Origin: Tannerellaceae bacterium
Lineage (GTDB): Bacteria > Bacteroidota > Bacteroidia > Bacteroidales > Tannerellaceae
Length of the DNA stretch: 57,867 bases
Assembly: GCA_031259845.1 (NCBI GenBank)
Contig: JAIRKZ010000004.1
Location: 1 to 57,867 of the forward strand
Direction: 5' to 3'
The notes below the pieces were generated by a model. That model was not told the DNA's origin. It saw only the letters and a list, made by a program, of their open reading frames with translations, and searched no databases. Within the stretch, counting starts at the first letter, position 1. Each line of letters starts with the position of its first letter. Made by a program: the position numbers and the translations under genes. This document shows positions 24,794-32,598 of this stretch, in pieces.

Positions 24794-25567
24794 CTATTCT
24801 ATCTTCTGCCTGATTTCTGATAAATACTTTTTCATCGCATCCGTATCTTTGTTTTCTATAATGGTCAGAAGTTTGGATAATTGTTCCTGTATTCGTTCTA
24901 TCTGCTTGGGCGAACGTGGATTAAATAATATTTCAGTTAATAAATAATCATCTTCCGACATCAATCCGCGGGCTATTTTCATGTGTTTTTTAAACGTTGT
25001 CCCAGGAGCGTCCTGATGCTTCATGGTGGCGGCAAACACTAAAGTGGATGCAAAGGGGATTCCGAGCGAATAGGCCACTACGCGGTCGTGTTCTTCAAAA
25101 GTGTATTCGAATATATTTAATTTCAGCCGGGAGTATAAATCTTTGAAAAATATTTTTCCTAAATGGTCTCCCTCTGAAATTATGATGGTATTTTCTTTTT
25201 CCAGATTCCCTAAATTGGCAAAAGTAGGGCCAAACATAGGGTGCGTAGAAACATACGGAAAGCCGCAGGCAGTGTAAAATCCGGCTAAATTTGTCTTTAC
25301 CGAAGCTATATCCGCTATAATACAATAGGGTTTCAGATAAGGCAGAATCGCTTTGAAGGCATCTATCGTTTTATTCAATGTAACGCAATTGATTACTAAT
25401 TCGGGGGCGAAAGTGGCTATTTCACCGGGTTCTTTCATTCGAAGTGCATTGTATATAAACCGCATGCGTTGCGGGTCGCTTTCCAATACGGCTACTTCAT
25501 GGTCGAAACTCAACAGGTCGGTAAAGAAAGAACCCATCTTCCCTGCTCCAAGTATTGCTATTTTCAT
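24794..25567 (-). CDS. tyrA: Prephenate dehydrogenase
   Basis: 257 residues. An N-terminal Rossmann fold (GAGKMGSF, 7-14) for NAD(P) is followed by the helical dimerisation part. THPMFGP (108-114) holds the conserved His of the family. It oxidatively decarboxylates prephenate to 4-hydroxyphenylpyruvate for tyrosine. No ACT domain is fused, so end-product control is likely at the level of the operon attenuator. It is the last gene of pheA-aminotransferase-aroF/CM-tyrA, 9 bp after its neighbour. Confidence 0.92.
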   Translation of the reverse strand: MKIAILGAGKMGSFFTDLLSFDHEVAVLESDPQRMRFIYNALRMKEPGEIATFAPELVINCVTLNKTIDAFKAILPYLKPYCIIADIASVKTNLAGFYTACGFPYVSTHPMFGPTFANLGNLEKENTIIISEGDHLGKIFFKDLYSRLKLNIFEYTFEEHDRVVAYSLGIPFASTLVFAATMKHQDAPGTTFKKHMKIARGLMSEDDYLLTEILFNPRSPKQIERIQEQLSKLLTIIENKDTDAMKKYLSEIRQKIE

Positions 25568-25576
25568 CTTTACTGA

Positions 25577-26644
25577 TTAATTTGTCATTATCTCCATCTG
25601 CTGGCGTACTGATTCTTCGTGTATCTCTCTTAATACCTCCTTTACAAATTCGGGGCTTAAATCCATCGATTCCCCCATATTAGAACGGTTTTCAAGGATT
25701 TCGTTATAGCGGGGCGATTGCAAGACAGGCATGTTATGTTCTTTTTTATAAATCCCTATTTCGCGCGAAATACGCATCCGCTTGGATAATAATTCCAATA
25801 ATTGTTCATCTATCTGGTCTATCTGGCGGCGTAATTCGGAAAGGTTTTCGGTTGTTTGCGTTACATCGCGTATCACTAAGAGATTCAATACATAATCAAG
25901 CACATCGGGCGTAATTTGTTGTTCCGAATCACTCAATGCGGCATCCGGATTACAGTGTGATTCAATAATTAAACCATCGAAACTCAAATCCATCGCCTGC
26001 TGGGAAAGAGGAGCTATCAATTCACGTTTCCCGCCAATATGGCTGGGATCGCAGAAAATAGGTAATTGAGGCAGACGCCTGCGTAATTCAATAGGAATAT
26101 GCCAAAGCGGAAGGTTACGGTAGATTTTCTTATCATACGAACTAAATCCCCGGTGTATGGCTCCGATACGTTGGATACCGGCCCCATAAATGCGTTCGAT
26201 GGCCCCAATCCAGAGTTCGAGATCGGGATTAACCGGGTTTTTTATTAATACGGGGATATCCACTCCTTTCAGGGCATCCGCTATTTCCTGTACGGCAAAA
26301 GGATTAACCGTAGTACGGGCGCCTATCCAAAGGATATCAATCCCGGCTTTTAACGCTTCAAATACATGGTCGCGGGTAGCAACTTCGGTGGCCACATACA
26401 TGCCTGTTTCTTCTTTTACGCGTTTCAGCCATTTCAAACCGATAACCCCAACACCCTCGAAACCTCCGGGCTTAGTCCGCGGCTTCCAGATACCCGCCCG
26501 GAATATCTTTATATCTTTACTTGCTATACTGCGGGCGGCAGCCATAACTTGTTCTTCCGACTCGGCGCTGCATGGCCCTGCTATTACAACAGGCCGTTTG
26601 GGGTCTACGCCGGGCAATACAATTGATTTTAATTCCATCTTCAT
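25577..26644 (-). CDS. Bifunctional DAHP synthase / chorismate mutase
   Basis: 355 residues. Residues 1-260 are the DAHP synthase type I barrel (VIAGPCSAES, KPRTKPGGFEGVG, WIGARTTVNPFAVQEIADAL, IFCDPSHIGGKRE, IIESHCNPD). Residues about 268-355 are a chorismate mutase type II helix bundle (LRRQIDQIDEQLLELLSKRM, IYKKEHNMPVLQSPRYNEIL). The fusion puts the first step of the shikimate route and the branch point to Phe/Tyr on one chain, as in other Bacteroidetes. There is no separate regulatory domain; in such fusions the mutase domain often mediates inhibition by prephenate. Confidence 0.94.
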   Translation of the reverse strand: MKMELKSIVLPGVDPKRPVVIAGPCSAESEEQVMAAARSIASKDIKIFRAGIWKPRTKPGGFEGVGVIGLKWLKRVKEETGMYVATEVATRDHVFEALKAGIDILWIGARTTVNPFAVQEIADALKGVDIPVLIKNPVNPDLELWIGAIERIYGAGIQRIGAIHRGFSSYDKKIYRNLPLWHIPIELRRRLPQLPIFCDPSHIGGKRELIAPLSQQAMDLSFDGLIIESHCNPDAALSDSEQQITPDVLDYVLNLLVIRDVTQTTENLSELRRQIDQIDEQLLELLSKRMRISREIGIYKKEHNMPVLQSPRYNEILENRSNMGESMDLSPEFVKEVLREIHEESVRQQMEIMTN

Positions 26645-26660
26645 CTATTGTTCTTATCGT

Positions 26661-27839
26661 TTATAATCTTTTTATTCTTTGTAAGGCTTCTCTTAATGTT
26701 TCTTCCTTGCAACACAAAGAGATACGTATATATCTATCCCCCCGGCTTCCGAATATAAAGCCGGGCGTAAGGAACACATTCGCCTCATATAATAGTTTAT
26801 CGGCCAATGCTTCACTGTTTTTAATACCCGAAGGAATTTTCCCCCATAAAAACATACCCGCCTGGTTATCGTCATACGTACAACCGAGCGCCCTCATGAT
26901 TTCTCCGGCAAGCCCTCTTCTGCTACGGTAAACCTTATTCATCCCGGTATACCATTCTTTGGGCGCTTTTAAGGCTTCAATAGCTGCATATTGCATCGGT
27001 TTAAACTGTCCGGAATCAATATTGCTCTTCACTTTGAGCACCCATTGTACAAACTGTGCATTCGAAGCCAGCATCGCCATACGCCATCCGGGCATATTAT
27101 GCGATTTACTCATCGAGTTTAATTCAATGCAACAATCTTTTGCCCCGGGAATGCTCAAGATGCTTAACGGTTTGTCGTTCAGGATAAAGCTATAAGGATT
27201 ATCATTCACTATTACAATATTATGCCTGCGTCCGAAGCTTACTGTTTTTTCAAAAAGTTCCCTGCTGGCTTTGGCGCCGGTGGGCATGTTGGGATAATTT
27301 ATCCACATTAGTTTTACCCCCGACAAATCTTTTTCTTCCAAAGCATCAAAATCGGGATACCAGTCAAGTTCTTCACTTAAATCATAAGATATGATACGGG
27401 CTTCCACCAAATTACTGACAGAAGTATAGGTAGGATAACCGGGATTGGGCGCTAATACGCCATCTCCGGGATTAAGAAAAGCCAGCGAAATATGCAAGAT
27501 GCCTTCTTTCGAACCAATTAACGGCTGTATTTCCGTGGCGGGATTGAGCGCTACGTTATACCAGGCTTTATACCAGTCGGAAAACGCTTTACGAAGTTCG
27601 GGGATTCCAATATAAGGCTGATAACCATGTTCATCGGCATTCAATGCATGCGTACGCAAGGCTTGAACCGTTTGCTCGGAGGGAGGAAGGTCAGGGCTTC
27701 CCACACCCAGATTAATCACATTTTTTCCGGCAGCATTCATTTCAGCCACTTCTTTCAGTTTCCTGGAAAAATAATATTCACTTACACTATTCACCCGTTT
27801 TGCCGGTACGGCATTAAACGCTTTGTTTTCCTTCTGCAT
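26661..27839 (-). CDS. Class I/II PLP aminotransferase (aromatic/aspartate type)
   Basis: 392 residues. The fold-type I PLP enzyme shows NPGYPTYTS, NYPNMPTGA, the ND.PYS block and the Schiff-base lysine near 245 in NSMSKSHNMPGWR. Its place between the prephenate dehydratase gene and the DAHP synthase/mutase gene argues that it transaminates phenylpyruvate and 4-hydroxyphenylpyruvate. An aspartate or LL-diaminopimelate-like specificity is the alternative from sequence alone. It overlaps pheA by 26 bp. Confidence 0.88.
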   Translation of the reverse strand: MQKENKAFNAVPAKRVNSVSEYYFSRKLKEVAEMNAAGKNVINLGVGSPDLPPSEQTVQALRTHALNADEHGYQPYIGIPELRKAFSDWYKAWYNVALNPATEIQPLIGSKEGILHISLAFLNPGDGVLAPNPGYPTYTSVSNLVEARIISYDLSEELDWYPDFDALEEKDLSGVKLMWINYPNMPTGAKASRELFEKTVSFGRRHNIVIVNDNPYSFILNDKPLSILSIPGAKDCCIELNSMSKSHNMPGWRMAMLASNAQFVQWVLKVKSNIDSGQFKPMQYAAIEALKAPKEWYTGMNKVYRSRRGLAGEIMRALGCTYDDNQAGMFLWGKIPSGIKNSEALADKLLYEANVFLTPGFIFGSRGDRYIRISLCCKEETLREALQRIKRL

Positions 27840-28659
27840 ATTCTCCTAATATTGTAAAGTCTTTTGTTAATGGAATAACTGCATCTAAAGCCTGTTTATA
27901 ACGCATATAATCATTGAAAGTAAGATCGGTGTAAAATAAGTATTGCCACTCGCGGCCAACGATTGGGAGTGATTGTATCTTGCTGAGATTCATATCATAA
28001 AAAGAGAGTATGGACAGCACTTGCGATAAACTGCCCACGGAATGTGGAAGAGCAAAAACAAGCGAGGCTTTATTTTTTTCCGTTCCTCTCATAATCTCAT
28101 CCGCCGTCCACTTATCTGCAATAGCAAGGAAACGGGTGAAATTGCGTTTATTGGTTTCAATCCCTTCGGCGAGCGTTTCCAAACCGTAAAATTCAGCTGC
28201 TTGCCGGCTGCAAATGGCCGCATGCCCCTTCAGTTTATTTTCGGCAATCCATTGGGCGCTTGCCGCAGTATCTTCTTTTTCCACAATCTTTATTTTAGGC
28301 AATGTATCCAGAAAATCCATACATTGCATCAAGGCTATCGGATGAGAATCTACTTCGGTTATTTCATGAATAGATGTTCCCGGAAGCGCTGCCAATGAAT
28401 GGGATATCCGCAGTTTATACTCGCCGACTGTACGGAAACCGCTCTGGCGAATTAATTCGTGGTTTTGTAACAGGCTGCCGGCTATGGTATTTTCAATTGC
28501 CATTAACCCTGCGATGGAAGGGTCTTTTTTAATTTCAGCTATTACATCCTTAAACGTCTCACATGCTACAATTTCAATCTCTTCTCCTTCGTAATACTTA
28601 TGGGCGGCTATATCGTGGTATGAACCCGCTATCCCCTGAATCGCAACTTTTTTTTTCAT
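27814..28659 (-). CDS. pheA: Prephenate dehydratase
   Basis: 281 residues, monofunctional. The dehydratase domain includes GSYHDIAA, AIENTIAGS and the catalytic TRF motif (175-177, in NFTRFLAI). A C-terminal ACT domain (about 195-275) would sense phenylalanine, although the classical ESRP element reads QSLP here. The product is phenylpyruvate. It is the first structural gene of the aromatic operon and directly follows the Phe/Tyr leader attenuator at 28684-28843. Confidence 0.95.
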   Translation of the reverse strand: MKKKVAIQGIAGSYHDIAAHKYYEGEEIEIVACETFKDVIAEIKKDPSIAGLMAIENTIAGSLLQNHELIRQSGFRTVGEYKLRISHSLAALPGTSIHEITEVDSHPIALMQCMDFLDTLPKIKIVEKEDTAASAQWIAENKLKGHAAICSRQAAEFYGLETLAEGIETNKRNFTRFLAIADKWTADEIMRGTEKNKASLVFALPHSVGSLSQVLSILSFYDMNLSKIQSLPIVGREWQYLFYTDLTFNDYMRYKQALDAVIPLTKDFTILGEYAEGKQSV

Positions 28660-28683
28660 CGTTCTTTCTTAAAGATTTATACA

Positions 28684-28718
28684 AAACAAAAAAGCCCCAC
28701 CGTTTTACGGCAGGACTT
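28684..28718 (-). terminator. pheA operon attenuator
   Basis: On the minus strand AAGTCCTGCCGT (28718-28707) and ACGGTGGGGCTT (28703-28692) form a 12-bp stem including G-U pairs with a 3-base loop, followed by TTTTTTG. It lies 24 bases before the pheA ATG. Its 5' arm contains TCCTGCC, exactly complementary to GGCAGGA inside the leader ORF (28781-28775), giving a ready antiterminator. Confidence 0.85.
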
Positions 28719-28744
28719 TTATATTACTTCGTTGATTCTATTTT

Positions 28745-28843
28745 TTAATTTATCAATCTCTTTACATAATATTTTCCTGCCTTTACTCTGCTAAAGTAAA
28801 AATAAAAGTAGAAATAATAATATGCAAAGCTAAATTGATTCAT
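28745..28843 (-). CDS. pheL: Phe/Tyr-rich leader peptide of the pheA operon
   Basis: A 32-codon ORF (ATG at 28843, TAA at 28747-28745) preceded by an AGGA-containing site. It has 6 Phe and 8 Tyr codons; codons 8-17 are an unbroken run of Tyr and Phe (YYYFYFYFYF), and two more Tyr are at 25-26. It precedes an intrinsic terminator and the pheA-tyrA genes, the layout of amino-acid-sensing attenuation. If ribosomes stall in the run, GGCAGGA (28781-28775) stays free to pair with the terminator 5' arm. If they proceed, that segment is covered and the terminator forms. Confidence 0.85.
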   Translation of the reverse strand: MNQFSFAYYYFYFYFYFSRVKAGKYYVKRLIN

Positions 28844-28864
28844 TGTTTCCTTCTGTTTCGGGGA

Positions 28865-28898
28865 CAAATGTAATACTTTTATTCAAAATGCAAGCAAA
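28865..28898 (-). promoter_or_regulatory. pheA operon promoter
   Basis: TACATTTG on the minus strand (28872-28865) lies 21 bases before the leader ATG. A TTTG at 28898-28895 is 22 bp away, slightly longer than the usual 19-21. Confidence 0.6.
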
Positions 28899-28950
28899 AA
28901 GTAAATTATTTCAGCAATTCAGGAAGAAAAAATCTTATTCATGCAATAAC

Positions 28951-30597
28951 TTACTTTACTTTCAAAAGCAACCGGCGTTTATTTATATCCGCCCATTCTA
29001 TCATAAGATTGCGGAAAGAAGCATAATCGGCGGGAGTTATCAATTGTTTATTGATGTTCAATGTGCGCTTTACTTCCACCCGGTTACCGTCTTGGCGGAC
29101 AGCATAGGTTGCTTTTCCTGCAACGTTGTCTGTCGTTTGGGTTGTTTCGGGCGTACACAGTTCCATACCGGGCGGCAACTGAATGGTATACGTATAGTTT
29201 TCATTGGCTTTACCGGGCAGTAATAAATTTACCTCCCGTTTGCTGTTATACGTCTTGTAAGCGGCGTTAGAGATACTTTCGGCGCTTTCCGGAAGCGAAA
29301 GGAGGATATATCCGTTGTTGTTTATCAGTGGCTGCTCCCTTTTGTCCGTACCGTTCGTTTGAATCTCGGCTTTCTCCGCAGATAAAGCAATGGAACAGGC
29401 GTATTCCAGCTTTTTATCGGGGGCTTTGAGCGTTATTTGTTTACCCGGGTTTGTAATACTTACATACTGTGCATAATCGGTATAGTTATCTACCGGAGAC
29501 GCCAGCTTTGTCTTTGGAGTAAGCAAATATTGTTCACCGCCGGCGTTTGCCAGCACAAACAATTCATCAATACCGCTAAGGCCGTAACTATTCAGATCGG
29601 CGCGGGTATAATAAGCGGCGGCAGCTTCCGCTTTAATGCCGGCAGCATTGAGTAAGCCGGTAAGTAAATTCAGTTTTTCCGCTTCCGTTCCGTAAGCCGA
29701 GGGATTCACATCATCCGCCGAGCGGATACGGAAACCTGTTTCCGGCAACGATAAACGGCAGAATCCTACATGGTCGTCCACATGCGCAAGGATTGCCTGA
29801 AGCTTCTCCGTATCGGTTGCCGAATGTTCCGTAAGGGTTTCGGAAAGCGATAGCAGCGGCATATCGCCCGCAGGCGTAAATTGTTTGCTTAACGTTTTAA
29901 TGGCTTCTTCATTTGAAGCATAGGTAGAAGCTACAAGTAATTGTTTACCCCCTCCCGCGGCGCTGACTAACGGCGCTACAGACGCTGCCGGCAGGTTGCG
30001 TATCCGCCAGCTTACTTCCGTCACTCCGTTTGTAGTACGAACCGAGGGTTTAACGGCTGAATTAACCAATGCATAATGCAGCGGCTTATTTTCAGGAACC
30101 GAAAGGGTAATTGTGTACTCTTTTACAGGCGACGTCTGTTCAATCGCATCGCATATATCCAGTTCGGGCAGATAACCCGGTTTGGAAATAACAGAATAAT
30201 CAAGGAAGATCGTTGCGCCAAGTTCCAATCCGGTGTGTACAACTACCATTTCTTTCAGGTGATTGTAAGCCGGAGCATTGGCCGCCTGGCGGGGTAGTAC
30301 TTCCACAAAGGCGTTTTCGGGCGTTTTTATGATCGTTCCGTCTTTCTGCCTGGTATATGAGGTATGTATTTTCAATTCCTGAAACGCAGGATTGTACACA
30401 ATAAAGCTTTCTCCATACGTACGATTCATCGCCGTGTGGGTAAACAGCGTTAAATTCATATTGTATCTGTATTCAAAACTACCATCGGCGTTCAGCCTGT
30501 ATGTTTTGGAAAGCGCTCCATATTCGGCTTCCAAAACGGCAAACAGTGAAAGCGAAGTGATGAAGTTTAGAAGTATTATAGTATATATTCTTTTCAT
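28951..30597 (-). CDS. Exported DUF3857-domain protein, without an obvious catalytic site
   Basis: 548 residues with a signal peptide (MKRIYTIILLNFITSLSLFA). An N-terminal DUF3857 beta domain (DGSFEYRYNMNLTLFTHTAMNRTYGESFIVYNP) is followed by a transglutaminase-like region and a C-terminal beta domain. The Cys-His-Asp triad seen in the upstream paralogue is not evident here; DHVGFCRL is present but the GVCKD block is not. It lies 39 bp after the larger DUF3857 gene, so they are co-transcribed and may act as an active/inactive pair in the periplasm. The substrate is unknown. Confidence 0.75.
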   Translation of the reverse strand: MKRIYTIILLNFITSLSLFAVLEAEYGALSKTYRLNADGSFEYRYNMNLTLFTHTAMNRTYGESFIVYNPAFQELKIHTSYTRQKDGTIIKTPENAFVEVLPRQAANAPAYNHLKEMVVVHTGLELGATIFLDYSVISKPGYLPELDICDAIEQTSPVKEYTITLSVPENKPLHYALVNSAVKPSVRTTNGVTEVSWRIRNLPAASVAPLVSAAGGGKQLLVASTYASNEEAIKTLSKQFTPAGDMPLLSLSETLTEHSATDTEKLQAILAHVDDHVGFCRLSLPETGFRIRSADDVNPSAYGTEAEKLNLLTGLLNAAGIKAEAAAAYYTRADLNSYGLSGIDELFVLANAGGEQYLLTPKTKLASPVDNYTDYAQYVSITNPGKQITLKAPDKKLEYACSIALSAEKAEIQTNGTDKREQPLINNNGYILLSLPESAESISNAAYKTYNSKREVNLLLPGKANENYTYTIQLPPGMELCTPETTQTTDNVAGKATYAVRQDGNRVEVKRTLNINKQLITPADYASFRNLMIEWADINKRRLLLKVK

Positions 30598-30636
30598 TTT
30601 TATCTAATTGTTTGTTTATTTATTTGATCATACTGA

Positions 30637-32598
30637 TTATTTACTGATAACGAGGTACTCCCCATAGCTTTTCTGTGTATTTACGGCGTCACGGAAACCC
30701 TCCCAGTCCGAAGCGTCATAAATGCGTTTTTTCAGGGCGAGCTTCTGGTAAAGCCTGATTGTATTGCCTTCTTGTTGCAGGAAACCGTCAAAATCGGCCG
30801 CCCCGCTTTTCTTTGTGTCCTTTTTAGAAGTTGTCAATAATTTGTAACCTTTGGGAAGTTGTATCGTTTCATCCAGTTCTACCAGGCGTGAGCAAGCATC
30901 GCGAAAACCATATTCGCGATTTTCCAAGTCCGTATTGATACGGAGATGCGACTGTACGGATACATACAGATTATTCATTACCATCGGTTTTACCAGCATT
31001 TCCTCTTTCCCGGGGATTGCATAATCCGGTATTTCGTAACGGAAGGTTATTTTGATAGGCGCCGCCAGGTAATCTTTCGGATTTTTGCCGTAGTCTACAT
31101 GGATTAATTTGGCTTTAGGCGAGACGGCCAATAGTTGTTGCTCCATGGCATTCTGCCATTCGGTTTGCAGGCCTTGTGTAAATATCCGGCGGATATTACT
31201 GTCCGATTGTCCTTCGGCGGTAATGGTAAATTGCCCGTTTAATGTACCTTTTTCGTCCAGCGTATGATGGGCGGTGATACGTACGTAATGATTTTCGGGA
31301 GGAGAAAGAGGCGTCCGGAGCAAGCCTGAACCTTCCGGTATACCGGGTAAATAGTTCTGTTGCTGTTCGGCGCTGCTCCACAATTCGCGAACAAAAGGAA
31401 CCCATGTCGGGTCGAGCGGCATATACGTTCCATTTGCTAATTTAACCACCGCCACACAGTGGTTGAAATGGTCTGCCGGAATGGTTTCCACGCGGCTGCC
31501 GGCCATCGTCATCGCCGGATAAGATTCAAAACCCGCCATACGCAGAAACGAAACAAGCGTACCGGCAATATCCTTGCACACCCCGCAGCGATCCGTATAA
31601 TTCATCTTTGTATTATGAAGCGTATACCCTTCTCCTTTTCCCATCGAGATGCCCGAATAGCGGATATTATCGGCCACCCAGTGAGTAAGCGCTTCTATTT
31701 TCTCCATTTCCGTTTTTTTCCCTTTTATCAATTCGTCTACTTTCTTTTGGGCTTCGGGCAGCGGGGCAAAACTTCCAAAATCTTCGTTCACTTTATAAAA
31801 CCACAGCGATTTATCCTGCCACCGGGGAGTAGACGACATAAATAGTTTAGGGGCGGAATCAAATAAATCCACCATATTAGGTTCCCCTTTAAACGGCATG
31901 GCATTATCTAAAGCGAAAGTATATACCTTCCCGCCCTCTTCATAGCGCATGGAGGAAGCGCATTCGCCCTGGTAAAACTGGTATTGCAGCTCTTTCTCCA
32001 TGGGTAAAGAAACCTGGTATATTTTCCGCACGGTAGGCTCCGGAACCCAGAAAGGAACGATATCATAGAACTGCCCGCGCATCGGAGGAATAAAGCGGGA
32101 TTCATCATCGCCGGGCGATAACAGGGCGTAAGTAAATCCTTTTTTAACAATTTCATATTCCACAATATCACCCGGTTCGAGCCGACCTGTTTCCAGCATA
32201 ATCTGGCGGGCTCCCCAAAAGATTGCCCGTGCGGGAGCGGCATAGTCGCATGCCCGGGTTACATCCAGGTTTACCACATCGCCGTTCGCCCGGTAAATAA
32301 CGGCATACCGGAATTGGGCAAAAGCGGTTAGCGGATCGTAGTCGTATACAACGACCCGGTTGTTTACCGCCCCTTTGGGCGTTTGCACTTTAAAAGCCTT
32401 ATAAACGGAAAATGTCCCGGAACCGGTAGGCTGTACAACAACCCGCGTACTATCAAGCAGCGTTACTACATCAAACCCTTTATATACATCCGGTTTGTTT
32501 AACGTAGGGTCTTGCGGAAACCTGCAAACCTCGCCTGTCTGCGCCATTGCAGGCATAAACGAAAATAAGGCTAAGAGAATAATTATCAACTGTTTCAT
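30637..32598 (-). CDS. Exported DUF3857 / transglutaminase-like protein
   Basis: 653 residues with a signal peptide ending AMAQ (about residue 20). After the DUF3857 domain comes a transglutaminase-like core with Cys in YTDRCGVCKDIAGTLVSFLR, His in ADHFNHCVAVV and Asp in PLDPTWVPF, the expected Cys-His-Asp order. A C-terminal beta domain (DUF3858-like) follows. Such proteins are widespread in Bacteroidetes, and a periplasmic protease or crosslinking role is inferred, not known. It heads a two-gene transcript with 28951-30597. Confidence 0.82.
   Translation of the reverse strand: MKQLIIILLALFSFMPAMAQTGEVCRFPQDPTLNKPDVYKGFDVVTLLDSTRVVVQPTGSGTFSVYKAFKVQTPKGAVNNRVVVYDYDPLTAFAQFRYAVIYRANGDVVNLDVTRACDYAAPARAIFWGARQIMLETGRLEPGDIVEYEIVKKGFTYALLSPGDDESRFIPPMRGQFYDIVPFWVPEPTVRKIYQVSLPMEKELQYQFYQGECASSMRYEEGGKVYTFALDNAMPFKGEPNMVDLFDSAPKLFMSSTPRWQDKSLWFYKVNEDFGSFAPLPEAQKKVDELIKGKKTEMEKIEALTHWVADNIRYSGISMGKGEGYTLHNTKMNYTDRCGVCKDIAGTLVSFLRMAGFESYPAMTMAGSRVETIPADHFNHCVAVVKLANGTYMPLDPTWVPFVRELWSSAEQQQNYLPGIPEGSGLLRTPLSPPENHYVRITAHHTLDEKGTLNGQFTITAEGQSDSNIRRIFTQGLQTEWQNAMEQQLLAVSPKAKLIHVDYGKNPKDYLAAPIKITFRYEIPDYAIPGKEEMLVKPMVMNNLYVSVQSHLRINTDLENREYGFRDACSRLVELDETIQLPKGYKLLTTSKKDTKKSGAADFDGFLQQEGNTIRLYQKLALKKRIYDASDWEGFRDAVNTQKSYGEYLVISK

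Follow-up and report, generated by a model that had tools for sequence, protein, structure and literature searches.

The window is a 57,867-nucleotide stretch of DNA from a Tannerellaceae bacterium. On its minus strand, pheA heads an operon that the initial annotation described as pheA-tyrA. Pfam matches placed both genes there and refined the operon to four, adding an aminotransferase and a DAHP synthase fused to chorismate mutase (Table 1), while none of the four reached an NCBIfam cut-off. Given this content, the operon serves both phenylalanine and tyrosine. A leader lies upstream, on the same strand, between pheA (28659-27814) and a DUF3857 gene (28951-30597). Directly upstream of the leader, 28951-32598 holds a pair of adjacent DUF3857 genes, of which one also encodes a transglutaminase-like domain.

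Table 1. Genes, leader elements and predicted RNA folds at the pheA locus of the window.
Feature	Position	Strand	Remarks
pheA, prephenate dehydratase	27814-28659	minus	Pfam PDT, 177 bits (cut-off 25.2)
Class I/II aminotransferase	26661-27839	minus	Pfam Aminotran_1_2, 203 bits
DAHP synthase fused to chorismate mutase	25577-26644	minus	Pfam DAHP_synth_1 and CM_2
tyrA, prephenate dehydrogenase	24794-25567	minus	Pfam PDH_N, 31.0 bits (cut-off 26.5)
Promoter-like element TACATTTG	28872-28865	minus	Fits TAnnTTTG; motif recurs upstream of relatives' leaders
Leader ORF	28843-28745	minus	32 codons, 6 Phe and 8 Tyr; peptide MNQFSFAYYYFYFYFYFSRVKAGKYYVKRLIN
Segment 1	28793..28822	minus	Ten consecutive Phe/Tyr codons (codons 8-17)
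Segment 2, GGCAGGA	28781-28775	minus	Antiterminator 5′ strand, inside the ORF
Segment 3, TCCTGCC	28715-28709	minus	Common to antiterminator and terminator
Protector hairpin	28752..28839	minus	Phe/Tyr run pairs with segment 2 and flanks
Antiterminator	28709..28781	minus	GGCAGGA/TCCTGCC plus AU-rich distal stem
Intrinsic terminator	28720-28684	minus	14-bp stem (28720-28707/28703-28690) plus U tract

The leader ORF has every feature claimed for it in the initial annotation: its length, its Phe and Tyr counts and the uninterrupted run. Comparison with 5,000 dinucleotide shuffles of 28660-28950, read in the three minus-strand frames, revealed a longest Phe/Tyr run of 10 in the real sequence versus 7 in the shuffles. 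No other run of at least six was found in any of the six frames of the window, and one leader-DNA search plus one RNA-model search of the window's own genome found no second leader copy. The promoter-like motif annotated ahead of the leader was also present: TACATTTG, with the ATG of the ORF 21 nt downstream, fits TAnnTTTG, the consensus of the Bacteroidetes -7 promoter element.

In the closest relatives (L003 and L004), the leader ends at 25 codons, with KAGKYM, versus 32 in the window. Comparison of the three sequences across 28775-28745 revealed one extra T in the window (TATTATGTAA versus TATATGTAA). The window ORF reaches 32 codons because this T shifts the frame beyond the stop used by the relatives. 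The extra T may be a real change or an assembly slip; four other leaders (L006, L016, L093 and L097) likewise continue beyond the usual stop.

Three folds were predicted for the leader RNA. The terminator hairpin and its U tract lie where the initial annotation placed them, but the stem is 14 bp, counting G-U pairs, rather than 12. With its AAA loop it has a folding energy of -18.4 kcal/mol (z = -5.36). The proposed antiterminator held as described, in that segment 2 is the exact complement of segment 3 (28792-28708, z = -4.90). The protector (28843-28730) has a folding energy of -25.8 kcal/mol and z = -4.45. For each fold, 0 of 200 shuffles were as stable. As predicted from the sequence, the antiterminator excludes both the protector and the terminator, so that the three are alternative folds.

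We examined 111 pheA loci for conservation of the leader. Eighty were found through PheA, mostly in Tannerellaceae and neighbouring families and many of them metagenome-assembled; a further 30 came from 60 relatives, 43 of which had a match. The total includes L001, counts the window twice (L001 and L002) and has some genomes in both sets. Of the 111 loci, 101 have a Phe/Tyr-rich leader, and the hairpins carry two-sided pair changes, so the refuting outcome named in the initial annotation, no conserved run or hairpin in relatives, was not seen. At 99 the terminator was scored; at the other two (L084 and L108), the terminator passed the script in neither, although hairpins were visible by eye. 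Of the ten loci without a leader, six were true negatives at our threshold (L027, L086, L104, L105, L106 and L110), three were short of upstream DNA (L046, L080 and L102) and one had Ns in the run (L077). A common leader peptide among the relatives is MNRFSFTYYFYYFYFSRVKAGVCM. Among the 79 distinct leaders whose upstream DNA was long enough, TAnnTTTG precedes 77, whereas neighbouring DNA gives an expectation of 0.018 per 60 nt; this recurrent, putative promoter motif speaks against a transcription start inside the ORF.

Beyond these loci, a covariance model matched 70 of 247 genomes of the order; this figure is rough because the matches include related and chance ones and strict filters miss divergent leaders. 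The matches L169, L175, L179 and L180, which do not lie before pheA, had no leader of the Phe/Tyr kind. At class level, PheA was found in 89 of 296 genomes, from which we fetched 20 loci, one per family. A Phe/Tyr leader was found at 13 of the 20 and not at the other 7; L182 lacked a detected terminator.

Pairing between segment 2 and the 5′ arm of the terminator is conserved. An exact complement of at least 7 nt was present in 71 of 83 distinct leaders versus 37 of 4,150 shuffled regions, the shuffles being single-base rather than dinucleotide. (The count took 83 of the 84 distinct leaders, omitting L083, for which the wrong hairpin was chosen.) The longest complement was GGCAGGA in 61 of the 83. 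Elsewhere both strands have changed, giving GACAGGA with TCCTGTC in a Symbiothrix/Dysgonomonadaceae-type group, ACGGGAT/ATCCCGT in L096, GACGGG/CCCGTC in L103 and GCGGGA/TCCCGC in L107. Swaps within the segment 2/3 pairs ran from GC to AU in 10 sequences and from AU to GC in 3.

We aligned 63 of 82 non-redundant leaders and measured how often the predicted pairs could form. For the 11 terminator pairs, 98.8% of cells were paired, versus 37.2-61.9% when the strands were slid. For the 14 antiterminator pairs, the figures were 89.5% and 40.0-49.4%; the outer AU-rich pairs were looser than the seven GGCAGGA/TCCTGCC pairs, and two of five covariation measures failed to beat shuffles (167/500 and 201/500). 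The protector was paired in 93.8% of cells, but in 77.5% when slid by one, so its pairing is partly what any U-rich and A-rich sequence would give. An inner helix, TTGAT/ATCAA, was visible by eye in many rows of the alignment and was absent from the RNAalifold consensus.

The spacing of these elements bears on how a ribosome could control them. In 50 of 83 leaders, segment 2 starts 11 nt past the final codon of the run; in 51, the stop codon starts 9 nt past segment 2. Measured from the first base of the P-site codon, a ribosome shields about 15 nt downstream and 14 nt upstream. A ribosome waiting in the run would therefore leave segment 2 exposed, whereas one that has reached a stop at the 9-nt distance would mask it. 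The stop starts before segment 2 ends in 13 of the 83, so segment 2 is kept whether it is coding or not. The window, unlike the common 9-nt geometry, has its stop codon 27 nt beyond segment 2. A ribosome at this stop would therefore not cover segment 2, and holding it is probably the job of the stable protector hairpin.

Since the run pairs with segment 2 and its flank, it could be U-rich solely for RNA pairing, with the amino acids irrelevant. The strong conservation of the run end, TTTTACTTT, as RNA fits such a role. However, across the last eight run positions of the 84 distinct leaders, 650 of 672 codons encode Phe or Tyr and none encodes Leu. As Leu is one base away, its absence suggests that the amino acid itself is under selection in addition to RNA pairing. 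The order of Phe and Tyr inside the run varies freely (by per-position counts), and over nine run positions of the distinct leaders, Tyr is encoded by TAC 210 times and by TAT 164 times. Together with the loss of Tyr codons from the run of lone-pheA leaders, while the partner operons retain them (below), the codon counts at the eight run positions make it very unlikely that pairing alone accounts for the run.

Loci at which pheA stands alone provide a natural experiment. There were 24, of which 12 had a leader, 11 did not (L224, L226, L249-L253, L257, L258, L260 and L276; none found at threshold) and one was cut (L140, where the fetched stretch ends inside pheA). By eye, L224 and L226 have coding-like sequence close upstream of pheA. 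The 12 leaders come from three families: one genome of f19 (G053), two of f29 and nine of f39. Set aside from this count were L140 and extra ORFs in L172 (-337) and L223 (-70). Tyr was absent from the run in 11 of the 12, the exception being L277, with one Tyr two residues after six Phe. The G053 leader (L172) reads MTRFFTHFFFFFTQQ, and no partner genes were found in the 4.9 kb downstream of its pheA (L202). The f29 run is FRFFFFFAFFF and the f39 runs are mostly FFFFFF. Tyr occurs outside the run in L223, L225, L254, L259 and L274; the script failed to detect an antiterminator complement for L259.

Operons that contain the partner genes retain Tyr. Among distinct leaders of operons that have aroF/tyrA/aspC but lack pheA, all 19 had both Phe and Tyr in the run. 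These include the tyrA-aroF operon of G053 (MNNTFGYYAFYYYFFYNN) and the aspC-aroF-tyrA operon of G063 (MIKNISVFAYFYYYFYFSKK). In the f39 partner operons, the run is mostly FFFFYF, with more Tyr just before it (one Tyr only in L270); no leader was found at L268. Where pheA is joined to aroF/tyrA/aspC, both amino acids were in the run of 95 of 96 ORFs, and the same was true of 84 of 84 in the first set of loci. The Tyr-free ORF, L178 (-206), is a neighbour of the mixed leader at the same locus, and some others among the 96 are probably not leaders. Seven other f19 genomes have pheA in an operon with a mixed leader. Second copies of the DAHP synthase/chorismate mutase gene (L228-L230) had no convincing leader. 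The simplest reading of these sequences is that Phe and Tyr codons act as separate sensors, each sharing the fate of the genes it serves, although three separations are few and we judged their independence by family labels rather than a tree. The Phe-only runs at stand-alone pheA lend further weight to the initial annotation's idea of a single leader that reads both end products.

A model that accommodates these data, and which we hold to be very probably correct, is ribosome-mediated transcription attenuation in which one leader peptide ORF responds jointly to charged tRNA-Phe and tRNA-Tyr; the comparisons thus support the reading first given to the locus. Transcription would start just upstream of the leader ORF. 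When Phe and Tyr are plentiful, the ribosome would clear the run and pass segment 2, so that segment 2 is covered or the protector re-forms between it and the run. With segment 2 occupied, segment 3 would pair with segment 4 and transcription would terminate after about 175 nt. When either charged tRNA is scarce, the ribosome would stall in the run and block the protector. Segments 2 and 3 could then pair as the antiterminator, allowing polymerase to enter the four-gene operon. In an untranslated leader, protector and terminator would both form, making off the default. The sequences themselves show the ORF, the three alternative folds and their conservation, and codons that suit the operon; the stalling of the ribosome, its coupling to polymerase and the effect on transcription are what we infer.

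Some regulatory ORFs stall ribosomes through their own peptide. The strongly aromatic leader peptide could similarly act in the exit tunnel as a nascent chain, or the leader could act on translation, instead of responding to charged tRNA supply. We consider this slightly less probable even than a run kept for RNA pairing: an intrinsic terminator and a competing antiterminator precede pheA, the Phe/Tyr order is free, and the residues after the run differ by lineage and follow the segment 2 RNA. Least credible is a constitutively damping terminator behind a functional small protein, given that the peptide sequence flanking the run varies across lineages (its endings include KAGVCM, KRDFNV and PEKGL) and that antiterminator and terminator arm change together.

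While the window has a single gate, tandem leaders stand before pheA in other Bacteroidales. Among 36 leaders at 18 hand-picked loci with two Phe/Tyr ORFs in series, a set with no shuffle control of its own, the script found a terminator belonging to the leader in 33 and a complement of at least 6 nt to its arm in 24. Some of the 6-nt matches may be chance; a 6-nt complement occurred in 180 of 4,150 shuffled regions. Both leaders passed at L145, L163, L209, L219, L236, L239, L240 and L241, which represent seven families. By eye, the two gates of L103 (4682-4985) use distinct arms, GACGGG/CCCGTC and AGGTGGGAT/ATCCCACC; L125, with the same leader pair, scored poorly with the script.

The Phe/Tyr RNA model also caught two Trp-rich leaders, L144 (MRTILVNTYWWRYLQLTKS) and L161 (MKSILVNAYWWRHLQLQKS), which have a terminator and the same layout. 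The gene downstream of each is presumably trpB. Separately, the distant Phe/Tyr leaders L157/L238, L160 and L167 have runs that include or adjoin Trp codons, which would be consistent with the sensing of a third aromatic amino acid.

Leader-peptide attenuators are textbook systems in Proteobacteria and sparsely documented in Bacteroidota. In the proteobacterial ones, a short ORF with many end-product codons is combined with a terminator before the first gene and with antiterminator and protector folds. The window leader resembles them in all of these elements, but interleaves Phe and Tyr in one run before an operon that makes both. In a comparative study of 2004, Vitreschak and colleagues reportedly mention attenuators in Bacteroidetes. 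The E. coli pheA, trp, his, thr and ilv operons are named as controlled by such leaders in PMC1183508. The Rfam Phe_leader family (RF01859) scored 18 bits in the window, below its gathering score of 55. At gathering score, Rfam 15 found two tRNAs only across the whole window, with no T-box, riboswitch or other cis-regulator in the leader.

The Bacteroid-trp motif (RF01692; Table 1 of PMC2864571) is likewise a cis-regulator of Bacteroidetes. The Trp-rich L144 and L161, laid out like the Phe/Tyr leader, are candidate members, but that motif has other codons and another operon, and the window has no RF01692 match. In the same phylum as the window, attenuation by short ORFs has been proposed before amino acid operons of Flavobacterium psychrophilum (PMC9723704) and for leader-like sORFs of Bacteroides thetaiotaomicron (PMC7366714). 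Phenylalanine is absent from the main text of both papers, and tyrosine from that of PMC7366714. The accessible parts of PMC4833913 and PMC7160235 hold nothing on a Phe/Tyr leader in Bacteroidota. More widely, we found no description of one in a literature search that left most subscription papers and all supplements outside. As for serial gates, Salmonella mgtCBR has two leader ORFs with serial attenuators that read ATP and proline (PMC3641672); the relatives' tandem leaders are also serial, but both of their gates read Phe/Tyr. According to a 2010 survey, such leaders had been demonstrated in Proteobacteria and Actinobacteria alone until its own His leaders in Firmicutes (PMC2965389). A 2013 study still suggests a gamma-proteobacterial origin of leader-peptide attenuators with few transfers (PMC3766115). 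The mechanism proposed here is classical; its bispecific Phe/Tyr form, widespread in the class, is apparently new to the literature.

On balance, we favour, with some reserve, the view that the bispecific Phe/Tyr attenuator is old in Bacteroidia, that its codons have been re-tuned to the genes served (mixed with aroF/tyrA, Phe-only for lone pheA) and that several lineages doubled it, so that two serial gates read one signal. Why one signal should need two gates is a question that the tandem forms pose. The codons of a leader offer a way to predict operon content, and the relatives without Tyr codons at lone pheA provide a ready test of codon sensing. Translation initiation in Bacteroidia proceeds largely without Shine-Dalgarno sites. 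If the view just given is correct, ribosome and polymerase would be tightly coupled in this class despite that mode of initiation. The leader also allows a direct test of how transcription and translation are coupled in these gut bacteria, a major group.
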